NCBI GenBank assembly: GCA_030064755.1 | Contig: JASJEH010000011.1 | Span: 1 to 56,300 of the forward strand | From: Methyloceanibacter sp. | GTDB taxonomy: Bacteria; Pseudomonadota; Alphaproteobacteria; Rhizobiales; Methyloligellaceae | Direction of reading: 5' to 3' | Length of the DNA: 56,300 bases | In this document: positions 16,678 through 23,241 of the stretch, piece after piece | Layout: every line of letters starts with the position of its first letter | Numbering within the stretch: position 1 is the stretch's first letter | The notes under the pieces: model-generated | Databases searched by the model: none | What the model was told of the DNA's origin: nothing | The model's input: only the letters and a program-made list of their open reading frames with translations | Made by a program: the position numbers and the translations under genes

Positions 16678-17421
16678 TTGGGCGCACCTGCATCGCCGTA
16701 TGCCCATCGGCCGCTCGATTTTGTCGAGAAGATCGAGTCTCTTACAGACTTTGACGCGATTTGTGCCGCGATCTCCGAGGAGTTGGCTTGGTACGGCTTC
16801 AGCTGTGTCACCAGCTTTATGATGCCAGGACCTGGCGAACCACAAAGGAATTGTGTTCAACTGAACACGCGGCCTCAGGGGTATCTCGATCACTACGTGG
16901 AAAACAACTATGTTCTGCGGGATCCCCTGGTCACGGAACTGCGAAACACGGTTCAACCGTTTTCGTGGAGCGATGTAGTTGAGAGGCGCGATCTCACCCG
17001 TGCGGACAGGCGAATTGTCGAAGAAGCCGATGAGTTCGACGTCAACAACGGCCTTGTGGTCCCGATTGTGACGCTGTCTGGGTCATTGTCGGTCTTCAGC
17101 CCATGCGGCCGCGATCCGGACCTGTCCCCCGATGCGCGACGCGCTGTCGAACTCATTTCGCTTTACAGCCATCAGGCACTCAAGCGCGTCCTCGTGGATA
17201 GGATGCGGAGCAGTGAAGCCCACACGCCACTGACACCGCGCGAACGGGAGGTGATGCATTGGATTGCGGCCGGCAAGTCTGACCACGAGGTCGCCGCGAT
17301 TCTGAATATTTCCGCCGGCACCGTGAACCTGCATGTCGAGCGGGCGAAGCGTAAGCTTGATGCCTTTCGTCGTACCTTCGCTGTTGTGAAAGCCATCCGT
17401 CTCGGCGAGATATCACTCTAA
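16678..17421 (+). CDS. LuxR-family quorum-sensing receptor/regulator
   Basis: This 247-residue regulator has an N-terminal autoinducer-binding domain (about 15-165) and a C-terminal LuxR-type helix-turn-helix (about 180-245, LTPREREVMHWIAAGKSDHEV... NISAGTVNLHVERAKRKL). Of the six ligand-pocket residues conserved in TraR/LuxR (W57 Y61 D70 P71 W85 G113), five are present as Y73, D82, P83, W97 and G125. The first is Tyr (Y69) where the family has Trp. The start appears to be TTG 16678, with GAGG upstream, as no ATG or GTG lies nearby in frame. Its partner luxI follows after a lux-box-like palindrome, so it is the likely cognate receptor. Confidence 0.92.
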   Translation: MGAPASPYAHRPLDFVEKIESLTDFDAICAAISEELAWYGFSCVTSFMMPGPGEPQRNCVQLNTRPQGYLDHYVENNYVLRDPLVTELRNTVQPFSWSDVVERRDLTRADRRIVEEADEFDVNNGLVVPIVTLSGSLSVFSPCGRDPDLSPDARRAVELISLYSHQALKRVLVDRMRSSEAHTPLTPREREVMHWIAAGKSDHEVAAILNISAGTVNLHVERAKRKLDAFRRTFAVVKAIRLGEISL

Positions 17422-17449
17422 CAGTCTGGAATAACTGAGAGAATAGTGT

Positions 17450-17471
17450 CTATATGGGAAAACCCATATAG
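17450..17471. promoter_or_regulatory. lux-box-like palindrome upstream of luxI
   Basis: CTATATGGG (17450-17458), AAAA, CCCATATAG (17463-17471) form a perfect 9-bp inverted repeat, 22 bases in all, 59 bases before the luxI ATG. Size and symmetry match the 18-22 bp operators of LuxR-type activators. I see no second perfect copy in front of luxR. Confidence 0.75.
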
Positions 17472-17530
17472 CCCAACAGCCATTCCCTAAGGCCTTAATT
17501 GCCTCGCGATTCACACCGGGAGGCACAGTT

Positions 17531-18199
17531 ATGGTTCAGGTCATCGAGGGTAAGGACAGGGCGCGGCACGCCGACCTGTTCGAGAAGCTCTTTCGCGCTC
17601 GCTACGAGACATTCGTCGTCAACCGCCGTTGGTCGTTGCCGGCTCGCAACGGCCTAGAGATCGATCAATACGACACCGATCAGGCGGTTTACTTCATTGA
17701 CATCGACAAAACGGGACATTTGCAGGGCGCGCTGCGTCTCACGCCAACCGTTACTGCTTCGCTCACCGCTGACTACTACCCGCATCTGTCCGATGGCGTG
17801 GTTCCCTTGCGTGACCCACTCATCTACGAGGGAACCCGCTATATGGCCTGTTCCAGGGAGAAGACACCTGGGAACAACCGGCGGGTGAAGGCACGCATCA
17901 TCAGCGCCGCGACCGAGTGGGCGTGGAATGTCGGAATAGGCCACGTTCAAACCATCATCGATGCGCCGCTGCTGAGAAGTTTCAAGAAGGTCAACTCTCA
18001 GACCTTCGCCCTGGGGTCTGCGCATCCCTACGGCGGGGGCAAAGGCGCACCGGGTGGCGGGACCTGCATGGCCATTCGACTCCCCGTGACCGAACGGGCG
18101 GTCCGCGAGGTCAAGGCTTATGGCGGTCTCGAAACTTCGATGTTGCCCGAGTCCTGCTTCAACGAGCTGACCCAGCCGCAATTGCGGAACGTCGCTTAA
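17531..18199 (+). CDS. LuxI-family acyl-homoserine-lactone synthase
   Basis: LuxI-type synthases make N-acyl-homoserine lactones from S-adenosylmethionine and an acyl-ACP or acyl-CoA. The 222-residue protein contains the full set of invariant residues at nearly canonical numbering: R24, F28, W34, E43, D45, D48, R69, E100 and R103 (in RARYETFVVNRRW, GLEIDQYD, GALRL and YEGTRYMACSRE). The acyl specificity cannot be read from the sequence. The start ATG has GGGAGG 8 bases upstream. A 22-bp palindrome lies 59 bases before the start, so activation by the upstream LuxR is expected. The phyH-like gene starts 28 bases after it. Confidence 0.93.
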   Translation: MVQVIEGKDRARHADLFEKLFRARYETFVVNRRWSLPARNGLEIDQYDTDQAVYFIDIDKTGHLQGALRLTPTVTASLTADYYPHLSDGVVPLRDPLIYEGTRYMACSREKTPGNNRRVKARIISAATEWAWNVGIGHVQTIIDAPLLRSFKKVNSQTFALGSAHPYGGGKGAPGGGTCMAIRLPVTERAVREVKAYGGLETSMLPESCFNELTQPQLRNVA

Positions 18200-18227
18200 G
18201 TTATGTCCTAGAGAGGGAGCCGCAAAA

Positions 18228-19265
18228 ATGACAATACATGCAAGAGATATCACACGCGCCGTTACACCAGACGAGATTGCTGCATATCGGCAGGCCGGTG
18301 TTGTTCTGCTGAAAGGAATCCTCAGTCTCGATGCCGTCAACAACCTCAGACGGTCAATCGACCTCACGGTCAATAAGCTCGACGATAGCCCGAGCGGGTA
18401 CGACTTCACTGAAATACTACGCGCGGCCGACGCGAATGATCTTGAGACGCTCAGCGCCATGAGTGACGGTCAGTATGATATCAAGGCGCTCGTGGATTAC
18501 GTCAGGTCCACCGGAAAGCCGATGCTGGCTGACGCCGACTCAGATGGGCGGGAAGGTGCCTATTTCATCGACACGGGCGTGGCGGCGAGGCTCAACAGCT
18601 ATCGTCAGCTCTGCGTGCGCGGTGCATTGCCGGCGGTCGCCGGACAACTCTTAGAGTCGGATACGGTTCGCTTTTTCGGTGACCAAGTCTTCGTCAAGGA
18701 GCCGAACACGCCAGGCAAGACCGCATTCCATCAAGATGCGACCTATTTCGAGATTGAGGGTGATCAGTGCTGCGTGATGTGGGTACCGGCGGACCCCGTG
18801 ACCTTGGAGACCGGCGCGATGATGTATGTGCGCGGGTCCCATAGCGACGGCACCTTGTACAAGCCCAACGTTTTTATCTCGCAAGCCCCCTTGCCAGGTT
18901 CAGAAGGTGTGGACCTCCCCGATATCGAAAGCAATCTAGAAGACTACGATATTGTGCACTTCGACGTGGAGCCCGGCGATGTCATCGTTCACCACTACAG
19001 GACCATTCACGGCACGGGCGGAAACCAGAGCCGCTATCAAGTACGACGGGCCGCCTCAATTCGGTATTGCGGCGATGACATTCGCTTCAAGGAGCGCCCC
19101 TGGGCGCCGCCGCAGCTGCATCACACAAATCGGTTGAAAACCGGCGATCCACTTGAGGGGCCTGATTTCCCGGTTGTCTGGGAGAGGCCGCTCGAGATTC
19201 CGGCGGTTGCCGGCGCCGTAGCCAGAACGACGACGGATCAACCAACCGGGACATACCAAACGTGA
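18228..19265 (+). CDS. Phytanoyl-CoA dioxygenase (PhyH) family protein
   Basis: Members of this family are Fe(II)/2-oxoglutarate-dependent oxygenases that hydroxylate acyl chains and other small molecules. The 345-residue protein has the iron-binding His-x-Asp (H168-Q-D170 in TAFHQDATYF), a distal His (H261 in YRTIHGTGGN) and an Arg (R273/R274) expected to bind the 2-oxoglutarate carboxylate, within the double-stranded beta-helix region. Start ATG 18228 follows GAGAGGG. It lies 28 bases after luxI and overlaps the next gene by 4 bases, forming luxI-phyH-ORF. The linkage suggests a role in the quorum response or in modifying the signal. Neither substrate nor product is known. Confidence 0.88.
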   Translation: MTIHARDITRAVTPDEIAAYRQAGVVLLKGILSLDAVNNLRRSIDLTVNKLDDSPSGYDFTEILRAADANDLETLSAMSDGQYDIKALVDYVRSTGKPMLADADSDGREGAYFIDTGVAARLNSYRQLCVRGALPAVAGQLLESDTVRFFGDQVFVKEPNTPGKTAFHQDATYFEIEGDQCCVMWVPADPVTLETGAMMYVRGSHSDGTLYKPNVFISQAPLPGSEGVDLPDIESNLEDYDIVHFDVEPGDVIVHHYRTIHGTGGNQSRYQVRRAASIRYCGDDIRFKERPWAPPQLHHTNRLKTGDPLEGPDFPVVWERPLEIPAVAGAVARTTTDQPTGTYQT

Positions 19266-19555
19266 AGCGGCGCCCTTTCAGTCCCACGGCGTCACTGCCG
19301 CAAGGTGAGCCATTCGACGTGGATGACGGTGGGGTCGCAGATCCCGATCCCACCGTGAGTTTTCCTCAGTGGTCTCGTTCCTTGCTCCTGCTGCTCGACT
19401 ACGCGATCATCGAGGGACTTCAGCATCGGCAGCTCGGATTCGTGCATTACCTAAAGCTCGCGGAAGCGGAATTGACCCAAGCTGCGTCCGAAGGCATAGC
19501 CAAAGAAAACACGGGGTCCCACGACGAAAGACCGTTGCCCTCGAAGACGCACTAA
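19262..19555 (+). CDS. Small protein downstream of the luxI operon
   Basis: This is a 97-residue frame starting with GTG in the GTGA overlap with the phyH-like gene, which argues for translational coupling. The N-terminal third is proline-rich and acidic. The middle (about 38-75) is predicted amphipathic helix (SRSLLLLLDYAIIEGLQHRQLGF), and the C-terminal part is polar. I recognise no family. Its position as the last gene of the luxI operon is the only clue. It ends 12 bases before a convergent regulator gene. Confidence 0.5.
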   Translation: MKRRPFSPTASLPQGEPFDVDDGGVADPDPTVSFPQWSRSLLLLLDYAIIEGLQHRQLGFVHYLKLAEAELTQAASEGIAKENTGSHDERPLPSKTH

Positions 19556-19567
19556 GCGGGACTCGTC

Positions 19568-19963
19568 CTACTTTGCGCCGTTCTCTTCGGCCTCGCTGCC
19601 GGCTATGCCCTCGACAAGGTTGACGACGGAACGCCTTAGTCCGGCATCGTCGATATCAGCGAAGGCTCGAACGAGGCGCAAGGCTTGTTGATCGCCGACA
19701 AACTTGATCGGCGACTCCGTTTCGTCAGTCTGCGGGCCTGCACCATCGAAGAACGCATGAATCGGTACATCAAGAGCCGTGGCGATTTGCATGAGCCGGC
19801 TTGCGCCCACGCGATTCGCGCCATTCTCGTACTTCTGAATCTGCTGAAATGTCAGACCAAGAAGGTTCGCGAGATCGGTCTGAGACATCTTACGTTCCAA
19901 CCGCCAGAATCGGACATTGTGTCCCACGACCACATCTGTCTGTTGCGGCGACTTCTTTCCCAT
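19568..19963 (-). CDS. XRE-family repressor resembling rhizobial PraR
   Basis: This 131-residue protein has an N-terminal Xre helix-turn-helix (about 12-70): VVVGHNVRFWRLERKMSQ, LANLLGLTFQQIQKYENGANRVGASRL, LMQIATALDVPIHAFFDG. The LGLTFQQIQKYE...GANRVGASRL block closely recalls PraR of Rhizobium, a repressor of quorum-sensing regulators. The C-terminal half is helical and acidic. I chose ATG 19963, which has AGGAG 5 bases upstream, over an in-frame codon 60 bases further. It is convergent with the luxI operon, so it may govern it or other targets. The function is by family resemblance only. Confidence 0.85.
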   Translation of the reverse strand: MGKKSPQQTDVVVGHNVRFWRLERKMSQTDLANLLGLTFQQIQKYENGANRVGASRLMQIATALDVPIHAFFDGAGPQTDETESPIKFVGDQQALRLVRAFADIDDAGLRRSVVNLVEGIAGSEAEENGAK

Positions 19964-20106
19964 GTTTGCTCCTGTAATGCACTGAAGGGGACAACCAATT
20001 ACAGCTGTTCGTGCCGCTAACATAGCGACAATCTCGCGGATGGAACATACTTTAGAGGGACTATAGACTGCGGCGCAACGTGTAGATGTCGCGCCATAGG
20101 CCGCGC

Positions 20107-21096
20107 CTATTCAGAGGATGCGTTAGAGCACGATCCGCCGCCCAGGACGCAGAATCGGGCGCAATGCGGATGGCATAGTTTGACAGCCCCCTGATCAAAG
20201 TAGCCGCCATGGGCGTCCGCTGCCTCGGCAAGGGTGGCGCCCATGCTGAAGCGCCGAAGATCCGTCAACAGCGTGCAGGGCAATACGACGGGCGCTCGAT
20301 CGCCGCGCCGCTTTGCAATCATGCGGCTTGAGGCACACATCATCGATGACGGCGACAGGTTGAGGATATCCCAGCATCCATCGGTAATCTCAGGCACGTC
20401 GGCGTGAGCGTCCATTTCCGGGAACAGCACAAGCGAGTTGCCATCGTTCGCGGCAATCGGCCACGATCGAGCTTCGATCAGGGCGGCGTAGCCCGCTCTG
20501 GCAGCCTCCTTTTGTTCACCCCAACAGGTTCGTCCCGCAAGTGCGACGGAGAAGCCGTGGGCTGCCAGCCAGTCGATCCCCTCGAGTGTCCTATCGAATG
20601 AGCCGGGTCCGCGTTCTTCGTCGTGAAGAACCGCAGTGTAGTGATCGAGACTGACCCGCAGTGTCAGCTGATCTCCATGAGCGTCGAGCAAATCCAACAG
20701 TGCATCGCGCACGCGCGGGCGCAGCATCGGCTGCATCGCGTTCGTCAGTACAAGTGCCGAGAAACCGCGTTCCAGCGCATCGGCGAGCATGCCAAGCATA
20801 TCTGGGTTCAAAAACGGCTCGCCGCCCGTGAACCCGATTTCCTTCACTGGCCAACTATCTGCCACGATCTCATCAAGAAAGGCGGATGCTTCCGCGCGGC
20901 TGATATAGACGAACGTATCGTTTGTAGGGCTGGATTCGATGTAGCAGTTACGGCAAGCGATGTTGCAGAGCGTACCGGTGTTGATCCAGAGCGTGTTGAG
21001 TTGCGTGAGTGAGACGCGGGCGCGGCGCTTGCCGTCGGCGGTCAGGTCCGGATGAGCAAATTTTCTTGTCGGTGTCGCGAGAACAGCGTCTGTCAT
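20107..21096 (-). CDS. Radical SAM protein with C-terminal Cys cluster
   Basis: Radical SAM enzymes use a [4Fe-4S] cluster to cleave S-adenosylmethionine and start radical chemistry. The CxxxCxxC motif is C44-x3-C48-x2-C51 (TLCNIACRNCYIE). The GGEP motif (GFTGGEPFLNP) follows about 40 residues later. The C-terminal 130 residues hold several more Cys (DGCWDI, MCASS, LPCTLL and the cluster KLCHPHCARFCVLGGGSC). They would fit a SPASM/twitch-type auxiliary cluster domain. The 329-residue length is normal. No precursor peptide or maturation partner is evident nearby, so the substrate is unknown. It has its own upstream gap and is not obviously part of the luxI locus. Confidence 0.85.
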   Translation of the reverse strand: MTDAVLATPTRKFAHPDLTADGKRRARVSLTQLNTLWINTGTLCNIACRNCYIESSPTNDTFVYISRAEASAFLDEIVADSWPVKEIGFTGGEPFLNPDMLGMLADALERGFSALVLTNAMQPMLRPRVRDALLDLLDAHGDQLTLRVSLDHYTAVLHDEERGPGSFDRTLEGIDWLAAHGFSVALAGRTCWGEQKEAARAGYAALIEARSWPIAANDGNSLVLFPEMDAHADVPEITDGCWDILNLSPSSMMCASSRMIAKRRGDRAPVVLPCTLLTDLRRFSMGATLAEAADAHGGYFDQGAVKLCHPHCARFCVLGGGSCSNASSE

Positions 21097-21245
21097 CAGC
21101 TTGGAGAGTCGGCGTTAGTGTTTGCGCGCATTAATCAATGAGGTCACTCGAACCGCAAGCCTCCGCGTATTCACCCTTGCGTGAAGGCTTGTTGCTTTTC
21201 TGCCTTTCCAAGTCATCCTGGACGAGCTACCCATGGTGGCATCAG

Positions 21246-21320
21246 GCGGGTGTAGCTCAGTGGTAGAGCAGTAGCTTCCCAAGCTACGTGTCGCGAGTTC
21301 GATTCTCGCTACCCGCTCCA
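21246..21320 (+). tRNA. tRNA-Gly (anticodon CCC)
   Basis: The 75-base sequence folds as a tRNA. The 5' acceptor strand GCGGGTG (21246-21252) pairs with TACCCGC (21310-21316) through six pairs and one G-T. The D-arm is GTAGCTCAGTGGTAGAGC, the anticodon stem GTAGC/GCTAC closes loop TTCCCAA with anticodon CCC, and GTTCGATTC is the T-loop region. The 3' CCA is encoded (21318-21320), with T as discriminator. The gene is convergent with the glycosyltransferase gene that follows. Confidence 0.97.
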
Positions 21321-21342
21321 GTTCTTCACTTGAGCTTTGCTC

Positions 21343-23241
21343 TCAGCTTGCAGGCCGTGCACGCGCACGGGACCCGTGGTCCGTTTTTTCCCATTTGAAC
21401 GGGGCAACGATGAACTGCCACACCGCCCGGTATGCGGCAAAGGAAACGAGCAGCCAATAGACCGGCATGAAAGCGACATGCCACCGAAGCCCGTCCTGAC
21501 GTCGGTGCCGCACCGCAATTAGGCCAAGGGTCATGGCGGTGGCATAACCCACGGCCAAGCTGAAAGTAGAGGCGGCCCAGAACGGGACTCCGAAGACGGA
21601 TTCCGGGAGCGCCAAGAGGGTCCCGCCACTGACAAGTTGCAGGGCCAAGAGTACGTAGAACCATGGATGTAGGAGTGCGGTCAGGATGGTGCCGCCAATC
21701 ATGATCTGGAACGCCACGAATCCGCGTAACCCCAGCTGATGAAAGAGTGCAGACGGGTGGCGCATGTGTACGAGCCAGGTTTGGACGAAGCCCTTCATCC
21801 AGCGCGTGCGCTGCCGAATCCAACTACCCAGCCGAACAGGCGCTTCCTCAAAGGTGGTGGACGCAATGACCGTGCAGCGATAACCGAGGCGGGACATGCG
21901 TGCTCCCAGATCCGCATCTTCGGTCACGTTGAAGGGATCCCAAGCGAGCAACCGCTTCAAGGCCGCCACACGGAAATGATTGGATGTCCCGCCCAGCGGG
22001 ATCGGCAGCTTCAGCCGATCGAGAAGCGGCAATAGTCCATCGAACAGAGCCAAATACTCAATCGCGAACTGCCGCGTCAGCCAGTTCGCATCCGAGTTAT
22101 GGATATTCAGGCGAGCCTGTGCTGTTGCAAGACTGGGCGGCCCAGTGCGAAACGCTTGGTAAGCACAGCGGAGCTGATCCGGTTCCGGTATGTCTTCGGC
22201 ATCGTAAACCACCAGATACTCCCCGCGCGCTCTAGGCAGGGCATAGTTCAGGGCTTTTGGCTTCGTTCGGGGACCAAGGTCAGGCACAACTACGATTTCA
22301 ACATTCGCTGGCAGGTGCAGTGCCCGCGCTTCCGCCACGGTCTTGGCGTCCGTAGCTTCGAGCACTAACTTGATGTCGAGTTTTGCCGCGGGCCAATCCA
22401 GGTTGCACAGTCCGTGCAAGAGCGGCTTCAGCATGTGCGCCTCGCGATAAAGCGGCGCGAGGATCGTATAGGTCGGTAGGGTAACATCGGCATCCCGAAT
22501 GCTGTGTTCACGCCTCGAACGCAGGTTGCACGGCGTGAACGTCAAGACAGCCTGCAAGCGAAACACGACGATGGGCAGGAAGAGGCATGCGGATGCGAGC
22601 GATGCGGCATAGATCGTCGCCTGTAGTGCGATGAGTGCACCCGCGACGAAGGCCAGCGCCCCAAGCACGATGCTCCACAACTGCCAGGGCATGAGCGGTC
22701 GATGCGCGCTTAGGCGAGGGGCGCGGAACTTCAAAGCCCAGATGGCATCTTGGGCGATCCGGGAGGCAAAGCACGCCGCTATCCCGTTTCGGAGTGTTCC
22801 CGGGGTTGTGAGCGCAACCGGGTGTGTGCCGAGCTTCGCCAGCAGGGCGCGGACGGCCAGGGGACGAAGCTGCGTCGCGTCCAGGAGTATTCGCCGCGTG
22901 GGGCTTAGGTCCTGCACGAGGCTGTCCCTCAGACACTGACTGGGGCCTGCTCCGCCCTGGGGAGCGACGTAGGGCGCTGCAATTCGCGATCGGTAGGGAA
23001 CGCCGGCCGAAGCGGCAAGAGCGCGGGCATACGCTTCCGCCGTGATCAGTCCCGACGCGATCATTGCTTCATGGACGGGAACGCCCCAGCGCTCCGCCAG
23101 ACGGCAGGCCTCAGCAAGGGCGGCTGAACTGAGATGTGTGTTGACGAGAAAACTGTATTCGACGGCAGCTGAAAGAGGTGTGCCAGCCGCGCGGGGCGCT
23201 ATCAGTGAGCCGCGGGTCTGGGTCGAAGGAGCAATTAACAC
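21343..23241 (-). CDS. Membrane GT2 glycosyltransferase with N-terminal GspE-N-like region
   Basis: This 632-residue inner-membrane processive-type glycosyltransferase resembles cellulose-synthase-like enzymes. The catalytic features are DAEDIPEPDQ (about 347), TEDADLG (about 439) and the QxxRW motif QRTRWMKG (about 476). Two or three membrane helices lie before the catalytic region (about 180-240) and several after 500. Residues 35-90 (GVPVHEAMIASGLITAEAYARALAASAGVPY) resemble the N-terminal domain of type II secretion/pilus ATPases, an arrangement seen in some bacterial exopolysaccharide GTs. The start is GTG 23241, which is poorly defined. The polymer made is unknown. Confidence 0.85.
   Translation of the reverse strand: MLIAPSTQTRGSLIAPRAAGTPLSAAVEYSFLVNTHLSSAALAEACRLAERWGVPVHEAMIASGLITAEAYARALAASAGVPYRSRIAAPYVAPQGGAGPSQCLRDSLVQDLSPTRRILLDATQLRPLAVRALLAKLGTHPVALTTPGTLRNGIAACFASRIAQDAIWALKFRAPRLSAHRPLMPWQLWSIVLGALAFVAGALIALQATIYAASLASACLFLPIVVFRLQAVLTFTPCNLRSRREHSIRDADVTLPTYTILAPLYREAHMLKPLLHGLCNLDWPAAKLDIKLVLEATDAKTVAEARALHLPANVEIVVVPDLGPRTKPKALNYALPRARGEYLVVYDAEDIPEPDQLRCAYQAFRTGPPSLATAQARLNIHNSDANWLTRQFAIEYLALFDGLLPLLDRLKLPIPLGGTSNHFRVAALKRLLAWDPFNVTEDADLGARMSRLGYRCTVIASTTFEEAPVRLGSWIRQRTRWMKGFVQTWLVHMRHPSALFHQLGLRGFVAFQIMIGGTILTALLHPWFYVLLALQLVSGGTLLALPESVFGVPFWAASTFSLAVGYATAMTLGLIAVRHRRQDGLRWHVAFMPVYWLLVSFAAYRAVWQFIVAPFKWEKTDHGSRARARPAS

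Follow-up and report, generated by a model that had tools for sequence, protein, structure and literature searches.

A luxR gene, a luxI gene, and a phyH gene at positions 16678 to 19555 of a 56,300-nucleotide stretch of Methyloceanibacter DNA (contig JASJEH010000011.1 of assembly GCA_030064755.1; this whole stretch is called the window below) may form a three-gene quorum-sensing (QS) circuit, in which PhyH hydroxylates the acyl donor of LuxI or the completed signal, with LuxR adapted to the product. We give this reading an even chance of being correct. The new elements are a dedicated PhyH clade with exclusive linkage to luxI, its recruitment separately from that seen in sphingomonads, and remodeled LuxR and LuxI partners. 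This arrangement is not due to chance, nor is it simply the published sphingomonad case.

The reaction of bacterial PhyH proteins encoded beside luxI was called “yet-to-be described” in 2016 (PMC5012321). Exclusive linkage, repeated recruitment, and above all the receptor changes make this question experimentally decidable. Among the literature titles and abstract openings covered, a scope that leaves most subscription journals outside, none assigns a reaction to PhyH or describes the present version of the system.

Layout of the luxR-luxI-phyH locus

Members of Methyloceanibacter (Hyphomicrobiales) are methylotrophs. The source assembly comprises 3.0 Mb in 157 contigs, and a family search found one luxI in it. 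The original prediction, made from the sequence alone, had described five elements here (luxR, a palindrome, luxI, phyH, and a coupled 97-codon open reading frame, ORF97); these, together with their coordinates and reading frames, were borne out by a recheck, and luxR, luxI, and phyH also by domain matches. The features are as follows.

16678..17421, + strand: luxR-type receptor gene, 247 amino acids (aa), TTG start (PF03472, 91 bits; PF00196, 61 bits)
16870..16884, + strand: codons of LuxR residues R65-P-Q-G-Y69, which span the positions of TraR Y53 (here Arg) and W57 (here Tyr) in an HMMER alignment to LasR
17450..17471, no strand: lux-box-like inverted repeat, 22 bp, 5' of luxI (CTATATGGG-AAAA-CCCATATAG)
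17531..18199, + strand: luxI-type synthase gene, 222 aa (PF00765, 55.8 bits; cut-off, 24)
18032..18061, + strand: codons of the GGGKGAPGGG signature, LuxI residues 168 to 177, from an alignment of LuxIs
18228..19265, + strand: phyH-type Fe(II)/2-oxoglutarate (2OG) oxygenase gene, 345 aa (PF05721, 87.4 bits; cut-off, 22)
18729..18737, + strand: codons of the PhyH iron ligands H168-x-D170; the third ligand, H261, is at 19008 to 19010
19262..19555, + strand: ORF97, 97 aa, translationally coupled to phyH (GTGA overlap)

The gap between luxI and phyH is 28 bp, and the two genes are presumably co-transcribed. Between species, the ratio of nonsynonymous to synonymous change per site (pN/pS) was 0.04 to 0.18 for LuxR, 0.07 to 0.22 for LuxI, 0.11 to 0.17 for PhyH, and 0.27 to 0.45 for ORF97. 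Because these values span 0.04 to 0.45, all four genes are coding and under purifying selection.

A PhyH clade linked to luxI

Strong LuxI matches (>120 bits; next genome, 82) and strong PhyH matches (>380 bits; next genome, 151) occurred in the same 11 of 200 genomes, the window's own included; in this comparison, the LuxI search preceded the PhyH search. A collection of species genomes was also scanned with two short peptide patterns from the PhyH alignment, which members lacking both would escape, and 41 loci were obtained. A luxI gene lies directly upstream of phyH, on the same strand, at 20 of the 21 loci with a clade phyH (PhyH of ≥300 bits). At the remaining locus, L053, the contig breaks off; in the genome set, this record (G021) has a LuxI C terminus at that end and the rest of luxI on another contig. 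No luxI or luxR was seen (0 of 48) in the 2.3- to 12.9-kb stretches covered at PhyH loci outside the clade, namely, 20 weaker loci from the scan and 28 that are among the matches listed from 385 Alphaproteobacteria genomes. As judged by sequence, the window PhyH belongs to a dedicated luxI-linked clade from mostly Hyphomicrobiales; one member (G324, locus L064) comes from outside the order.

The linkage was also approached from the side of the synthase. Among 397 genomes of the order, a LuxI-profile search found this LuxI type in 13 (≥230 bits; next genome, 143), and a clade PhyH adjoins luxI in 12 of these. The profile for this count was itself built from PhyH-linked LuxIs, and just two of the 13 genomes had not been in the set before, namely, G778, in which PhyH is present, and G860. 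The contig of G860 stops 89 bp past the LuxI match, and no PhyH was found in its assembly. Inversion of luxR (L065) and doubling of luxR-luxI (L070) leave the order of luxI and phyH intact. The check proposed by the original prediction, that relatives should conserve the luxI-phyH link, came out strongly in its favor (20 of 21 loci and 12 of 13 genomes). The distance correlations among LuxI, LuxR, and PhyH were all 0.88 to 0.89 and did not single out the luxI-phyH pair.

Two of the loci have unusual structures. L070 is a tandem luxR-luxI-luxR-luxI-phyH array, and the first LuxI match of L071 is weak (51 bits). The PhyH matches of both are shorter than usual, at about 264 codons versus about 313.

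Independent recruitment of PhyH behind luxI

Adjacency of luxI and phyH has been published for four of five novI genes of Novosphingobium (PMC3704786), for other sphingomonads (PMC4288048), and as three novR-novI-phyH clusters in N. subterraneum (PMC5012321). The layout in these papers, also designated topology T, resembles that of the window: luxR, luxI, and a close PF05721 gene follow each other on the same strand. Unlike the window PhyH, however, the sphingomonad proteins belong to another, non-orthologous PhyH subfamily, and their partners mostly keep Trp at LuxR position 57 (12 of 15) and lack the LuxI glycine signature (0 of 18).

Within the Sphingomonadaceae, luxI is present in 39 of 119 genomes, and a clear PhyH-family gene stands behind it at 20 of the 30 luxI loci listed. 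All 11 of the sphingomonad luxI-linked PhyHs that were aligned match PF05721. Against the window PhyH, they score 17 to 19 bits (four loci with a reported match); unlinked PhyHs score 130 to 226 bits. Their nearest solved relatives are the PrhA/AndA-type oxygenases, which are fungal, and those of the window PhyH are MysH and SnoK.

According to a 95-row tree, each luxI-linked PhyH group is nested among its own unlinked relatives. A single luxI-linked PhyH clade was rejected by the approximately unbiased (AU) test after 30 rows were added (p = 2.4e-11); an earlier, more poorly sampled tree, from which the unlinked relatives of the sphingomonad PhyH had been left out, gave p = 0.55 and did not reject the single clade. 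The node of the sphingomonad PhyH has a support of 85 in the Shimodaira-Hasegawa-like approximate likelihood ratio test (SH-aLRT) and is not starred. The two short rows L136 and L144 are missing from the 95-row set, as are 8 of the 26 rows of the clade; L156 was relabeled as luxI-linked once a LuxI was seen in its locus, and L161 was kept as unlinked though luxI adjoins it. A single clade of PhyH-linked LuxIs was rejected as well (p = 2e-57). Since a common luxI-linked PhyH clade is rejected, PhyH was recruited behind luxI at least twice.

Four further loci bear on the variety of such arrangements. A luxR-luxI-PhyH locus in G289 (L186, 4556 to 7076) has a PhyH that groups with unlinked proteins, on a long branch and outside both main groups, and possibly represents a third recruitment; from a reading of the ORF ends, the first ATG of its phyH and the stop of luxI seem to overlap. 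At L144 (1447 to 2951, G590), the luxI frame runs without a stop into phyH as a 489-codon ORF that matches LuxI (208 bits) and then PhyH (248 bits), after which the phyH part shifts frame; this may be a luxI-phyH fusion, decay, or an assembly error. L187 (4206 to 8163, G203) has a sphingomonad-type PhyH between two luxR-luxI pairs. Finally, plasmid pSRL2 of Sphingobium indicum B90A (L153, 4001 to 7881) carries luxI followed by genes for an acyl carrier protein (ACP), a cyclopropane-fatty-acyl synthase-family protein, and a fatty acyl-AMP ligase, making it another candidate signal-tailoring cassette that includes its own carrier protein.

Substitutions in the LuxR receptor

The ligand domain of LuxR proteins has six highly conserved residues (W57, Y61, D70, P71, W85, and G113), and residues 53 and 57, in TraR numbering, are ligand contacts (PMC3821632). 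The window LuxR, which has both the autoinducer-binding and the GerE domain (PF03472 and PF00196), keeps five of the six; W57 is replaced by Tyr, so the full six-residue set of an acyl-homoserine lactone (AHL)-binding LuxR is not present. HMMER pairs NYPAAW of LasR with TRPQGY of the window protein. The two substituted positions presumably contact the amide carbonyl and the lactone.

Residues were counted in 71 LuxRs, with L199, whose contig ends behind luxI, tallied in the clade. Among the 26 clade LuxRs, 24 have Tyr at position 57, one has Phe, and one (L072) has Trp; 25 have Arg at position 53. The 30 LuxRs encoded beside PhyH-less LuxIs all have Trp at position 57; at position 53, 26 of them carry an aromatic residue and one carries Arg. 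Here, “PhyH-less” means that no PhyH lies within the available stretch, L150 having a PhyH fragment (36.5 bits) and L219 extending only about 320 bp past luxI. The 15 sphingomonad PhyH-linked LuxRs have Trp (12) or Ile (3) at position 57. The LuxR tree shows two changes at position 57, both on PhyH-linked branches, and a single gain of Arg53.

Loss of W57 is shared with the LuxR solos of plant-associated bacteria (PAB; OryR type), the ligand of which is other than a standard AHL (PMC3821632, PMC10134790). These solos have Met at position 57 and Trp at position 61 and no linked luxI, whereas the window LuxR has Tyr at position 57, keeps Y61, and has its own luxI. The altered residues of LuxR, like those of LuxI described below, suggest a chemically modified signal. 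Alternatively, PhyH could be induced with luxI and hydroxylate the AHL to an inactive form, providing negative feedback. Such signal turnover requires no more than a hydroxylase fold expressed together with luxI and predicts strict linkage equally well, but the remodeling of LuxR is more easily explained if LuxR binds the modified molecule, and we know of no dedicated AHL-inactivating 2OG oxygenase. We consider turnover rather improbable.

A second clade-like LuxR copy lies away from the circuit at G123:C336:15578-16294. This protein and the lone LuxR of G181, described below, are possible listeners to the same signal.

LuxI synthase and the acyl donor

LuxI had been said to have every invariant residue of its family. 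Eight catalytic residues are indeed kept (R24, F28, W34, D45, D48, R69, E100, and R103, from a list of S-adenosylmethionine [SAM]- and acyl-related residues); position 83, however, is Tyr in place of the usual Phe. With these residues and its PF00765 match, the protein is a member of the LuxI family, with an acyl-homoserine lactone (acyl-HSL) as its predicted product. The pattern GGGx4GGG is found in 23 of 24 PhyH-linked clade LuxI ORFs versus 0 of 32 PhyH-less and 0 of 18 sphingomonad PhyH-linked LuxIs. At residue 147, Trp or Phe occurs in 17 of 18 sphingomonad LuxIs, at least 21 of 32 PhyH-less LuxIs, and 1 of 23 clade LuxIs; the other 22 clade LuxIs are non-aromatic there, and none of the 23 has Trp.

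Single-base gaps break luxI in two drafts, G004 (L045) and G013 (L044), in which phyH is open; these may be assembly errors or decay. The luxR of G013 is also frame-broken, possibly by an assembly error. Both genomes were excluded from the LuxI and LuxR trees and from the residue counts of the two proteins.

The acyl-coenzyme A (CoA)-dependent LuxI subgroup (RpaI/BjaI) is marked by an indole platform of two Trp residues, W142 and W143 in BjaI (PMC8188788). This platform is absent from the window LuxI, in which DAPLL aligns with ETWWL of BjaI. The window protein scores 77.7 bits against RpaI and 61.3 against BjaI, which are CoA dependent, and 49.1 against TofI, 23.5 against EsaI, and 21.7 against LasI, which are ACP dependent (PMC8188788). 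The use of acyl-CoA by LuxI was dropped as an established fact, given the missing platform and the score of TofI not far behind. These data bear on the possibility that PhyH supplies LuxI with an unusual acyl thioester by an alpha-oxidation-like route, the signal itself bearing no hydroxyl. The higher scores to RpaI and BjaI favor it, as does phytanoyl-CoA hydroxylase (PAHX), which readies phytanoyl-CoA for the removal of one carbon (PMC5012321), and a crotonase of Mesorhizobium has been proposed to act at the acyl-donor step (PMC10470506). Yet the indole platform is missing, TofI is close behind, and no recurrent pathway gene stands beside the circuit among the neighbor matches listed, where an XRE-type regulator is the only further neighbor common to three loci outside the genus (L058, L059, and L061). 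Donor supply of this kind thus seems quite unlikely.

The PhyH oxygenase and a proposed role in signal tailoring

The iron ligands named in the original prediction, H168, D170, and H261, are invariant in all 42 aligned PhyH relatives. The protein has the attributes of a PF05721 oxygenase, namely, the HxD...H iron triad, a downstream Arg, and the PhyH fold; R273/R274 are taken to bind 2OG. From what is established for this fold, Asp170 favors hydroxylation over halogenation. An AlphaFold2 model built from the 42-row alignment has a mean predicted local distance difference test (pLDDT) score of 93. Foldseek placed MysH (9c9n) first, with a template modeling (TM) score of 0.80 by target length and 24% identity, followed by SnoN and SnoK. 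The human enzymes PHYHD1 (2opw) and PAHX (2a1x) share the Pfam family, the fold, and the triad with the window PhyH but are more distant than MysH (TM score of 0.65 by target length; 14 to 15% identity in the fold alignment). An acyl-CoA is one candidate substrate for hydroxylation, and the fold does not single out a substrate.

We propose the following mechanism. LuxI would couple an acyl group to SAM, and PhyH would act by hydroxylation ahead of LuxI, on the acyl donor, or after LuxI, on the acyl-HSL, most likely near the amide or head group, e.g., at C2, the site oxidized by phytanoyl-CoA hydroxylase. The paired LuxR, with Arg53 and Tyr57, would then recognize the PhyH product and activate luxI-phyH via the palindrome. 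Signal tailoring is judged the most likely role because the exclusive linkage to one LuxI type, the repeated recruitment, and the changed receptor are jointly explained only by a part in making or shaping the signal.

There is a precedent for an adjacent modifying enzyme, as the original prediction noted. The R1-I1-crotonase circuit of Mesorhizobium japonicum makes an unusual acyl-HSL, 2E,4E-C12:2-HSL, of which little is left when the crotonase is deleted (PMC10470506). By analogy, PhyH may act similarly: both circuits have three linked genes with the enzyme gene behind luxI (8 bp in Mesorhizobium), and both linkages extend to further genera. They differ in that the Mesorhizobium enzyme has a crotonase fold and not that of a 2OG oxygenase, and in that its signal was chemically identified and a mutant tested (PMC10470506).

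Several observations weigh against signal tailoring. The nearest solved relatives of PhyH (MysH, SnoN, and SnoK) are not acyl-chain enzymes or lipid hydroxylases, and the LuxI indole platform is missing. Within the genus, the LuxI-PhyH pair is patchy, being present in 6 of 17 genomes and absent altogether from 11, several of them incomplete. The LuxR and LuxI substitutions represent few evolutionary events. PhyH is not always paired with an altered receptor, since most sphingomonad PhyH-linked LuxRs retain W57. Moreover, the traits did not arise at the same time: R53 is already present in the nearest PhyH-less circuit (G054), and the basal PhyH-linked circuit (L072) retains W57 without having the GGG motif. 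G181 (L236) has a lone LuxR with the Arg/Tyr pair, luxI and phyH being absent from its locus. Finally, novI of N. subterraneum without phyH yields C8-OH and C10-OH HSLs, that is, 3-hydroxy-acyl-HSLs, and the signals of the native strain register on ordinary AHL biosensors (PMC5012321). Formation of the 3-OH group by PhyH was rejected on the ground of this production from novI alone, in another genus.

The NovI products, standard AHLs made without PhyH (PMC5012321), also speak for PhyH as a QS output, co-transcribed with luxI but acting on an unrelated metabolite while the signal remains an ordinary acyl-HSL. According to the citation by Gan in 2013 (PMC3704786), Hao et al. went no further than to propose QS regulation of phyH, and PhyH-family substrates include many small molecules, as the relatives MysH, SnoK, and SnoN illustrate. 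However, an output enzyme would be expected elsewhere at times, and none of the clade members detected lies apart from luxI (L053 being cut); this explanation also leaves the changed LuxR and LuxI sites and the two or more recruitments unaccounted for. We consider it unlikely, if still worth keeping in view.

A bolder form of signal tailoring, which we hold only tentatively, is a distinct QS code: a 2OG oxygenase recruited in Alphaproteobacteria at least twice, perhaps three times, would hydroxylate the acyl-HSL beside or on the head group, and in the present clade the acyl pocket of LuxI and the ligand contacts of LuxR (the near-invariant W57 and position 53) would have been rewritten to match. 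If so, the signal would be a private one that standard AHL biosensors and scans for the fragment at a mass-to-charge ratio (m/z) of 102 would partly miss. More generally, a modified signal would extend the known acyl-HSLs by an oxygenase-tailored class, would show joint evolution of synthase, tailoring enzyme, and receptor, and may be overlooked by standard biosensors and targeted mass spectrometry.

The palindrome, ORF97, and neighboring genes

The palindrome at 17450 to 17471 consists of two perfect 9-nucleotide arms flanking AAAA. The assembly has no second site at ≤2 mismatches and one other match, on contig C145, with 3; a control pattern gave 0 matches in the same search. Palindromy of this site alone is at p = 0.035 against shuffles of the luxR-luxI gap, which preserve single-base content only. 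Outside the genus, a TCCTARnnnnYTAGGATA-like repeat (≤3 mismatches of 14) occurs at 14 of 18 loci; two of these (L065 and L067) lie inside luxI by eye, leaving 12 in the luxR-luxI gap, three of which had defined the motif before its test; the shuffles used with this motif likewise preserve nothing beyond single-base content. Within the genus, the half-site is present at four of six loci; the window and G013 differ there yet are palindromic at the aligned place. Tested individually, 4 of 24 loci gave p < 0.05, two of the four at another place.

ORF97 has no match in Pfam or NCBIfam. Its GTG start overlaps the phyH stop (GTGA) in all four species compared. Searches with tblastn matched it at all five other Methyloceanibacter loci carrying the circuit and gave none in six further stretches from five genomes; it is so far confined to the genus. 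Downstream, positions 19568 to 23241 encode an XRE-type regulator, a radical-SAM protein, and glycosyltransferases, and this gene order is kept beside the circuit in five other circuit-bearing Methyloceanibacter genomes.

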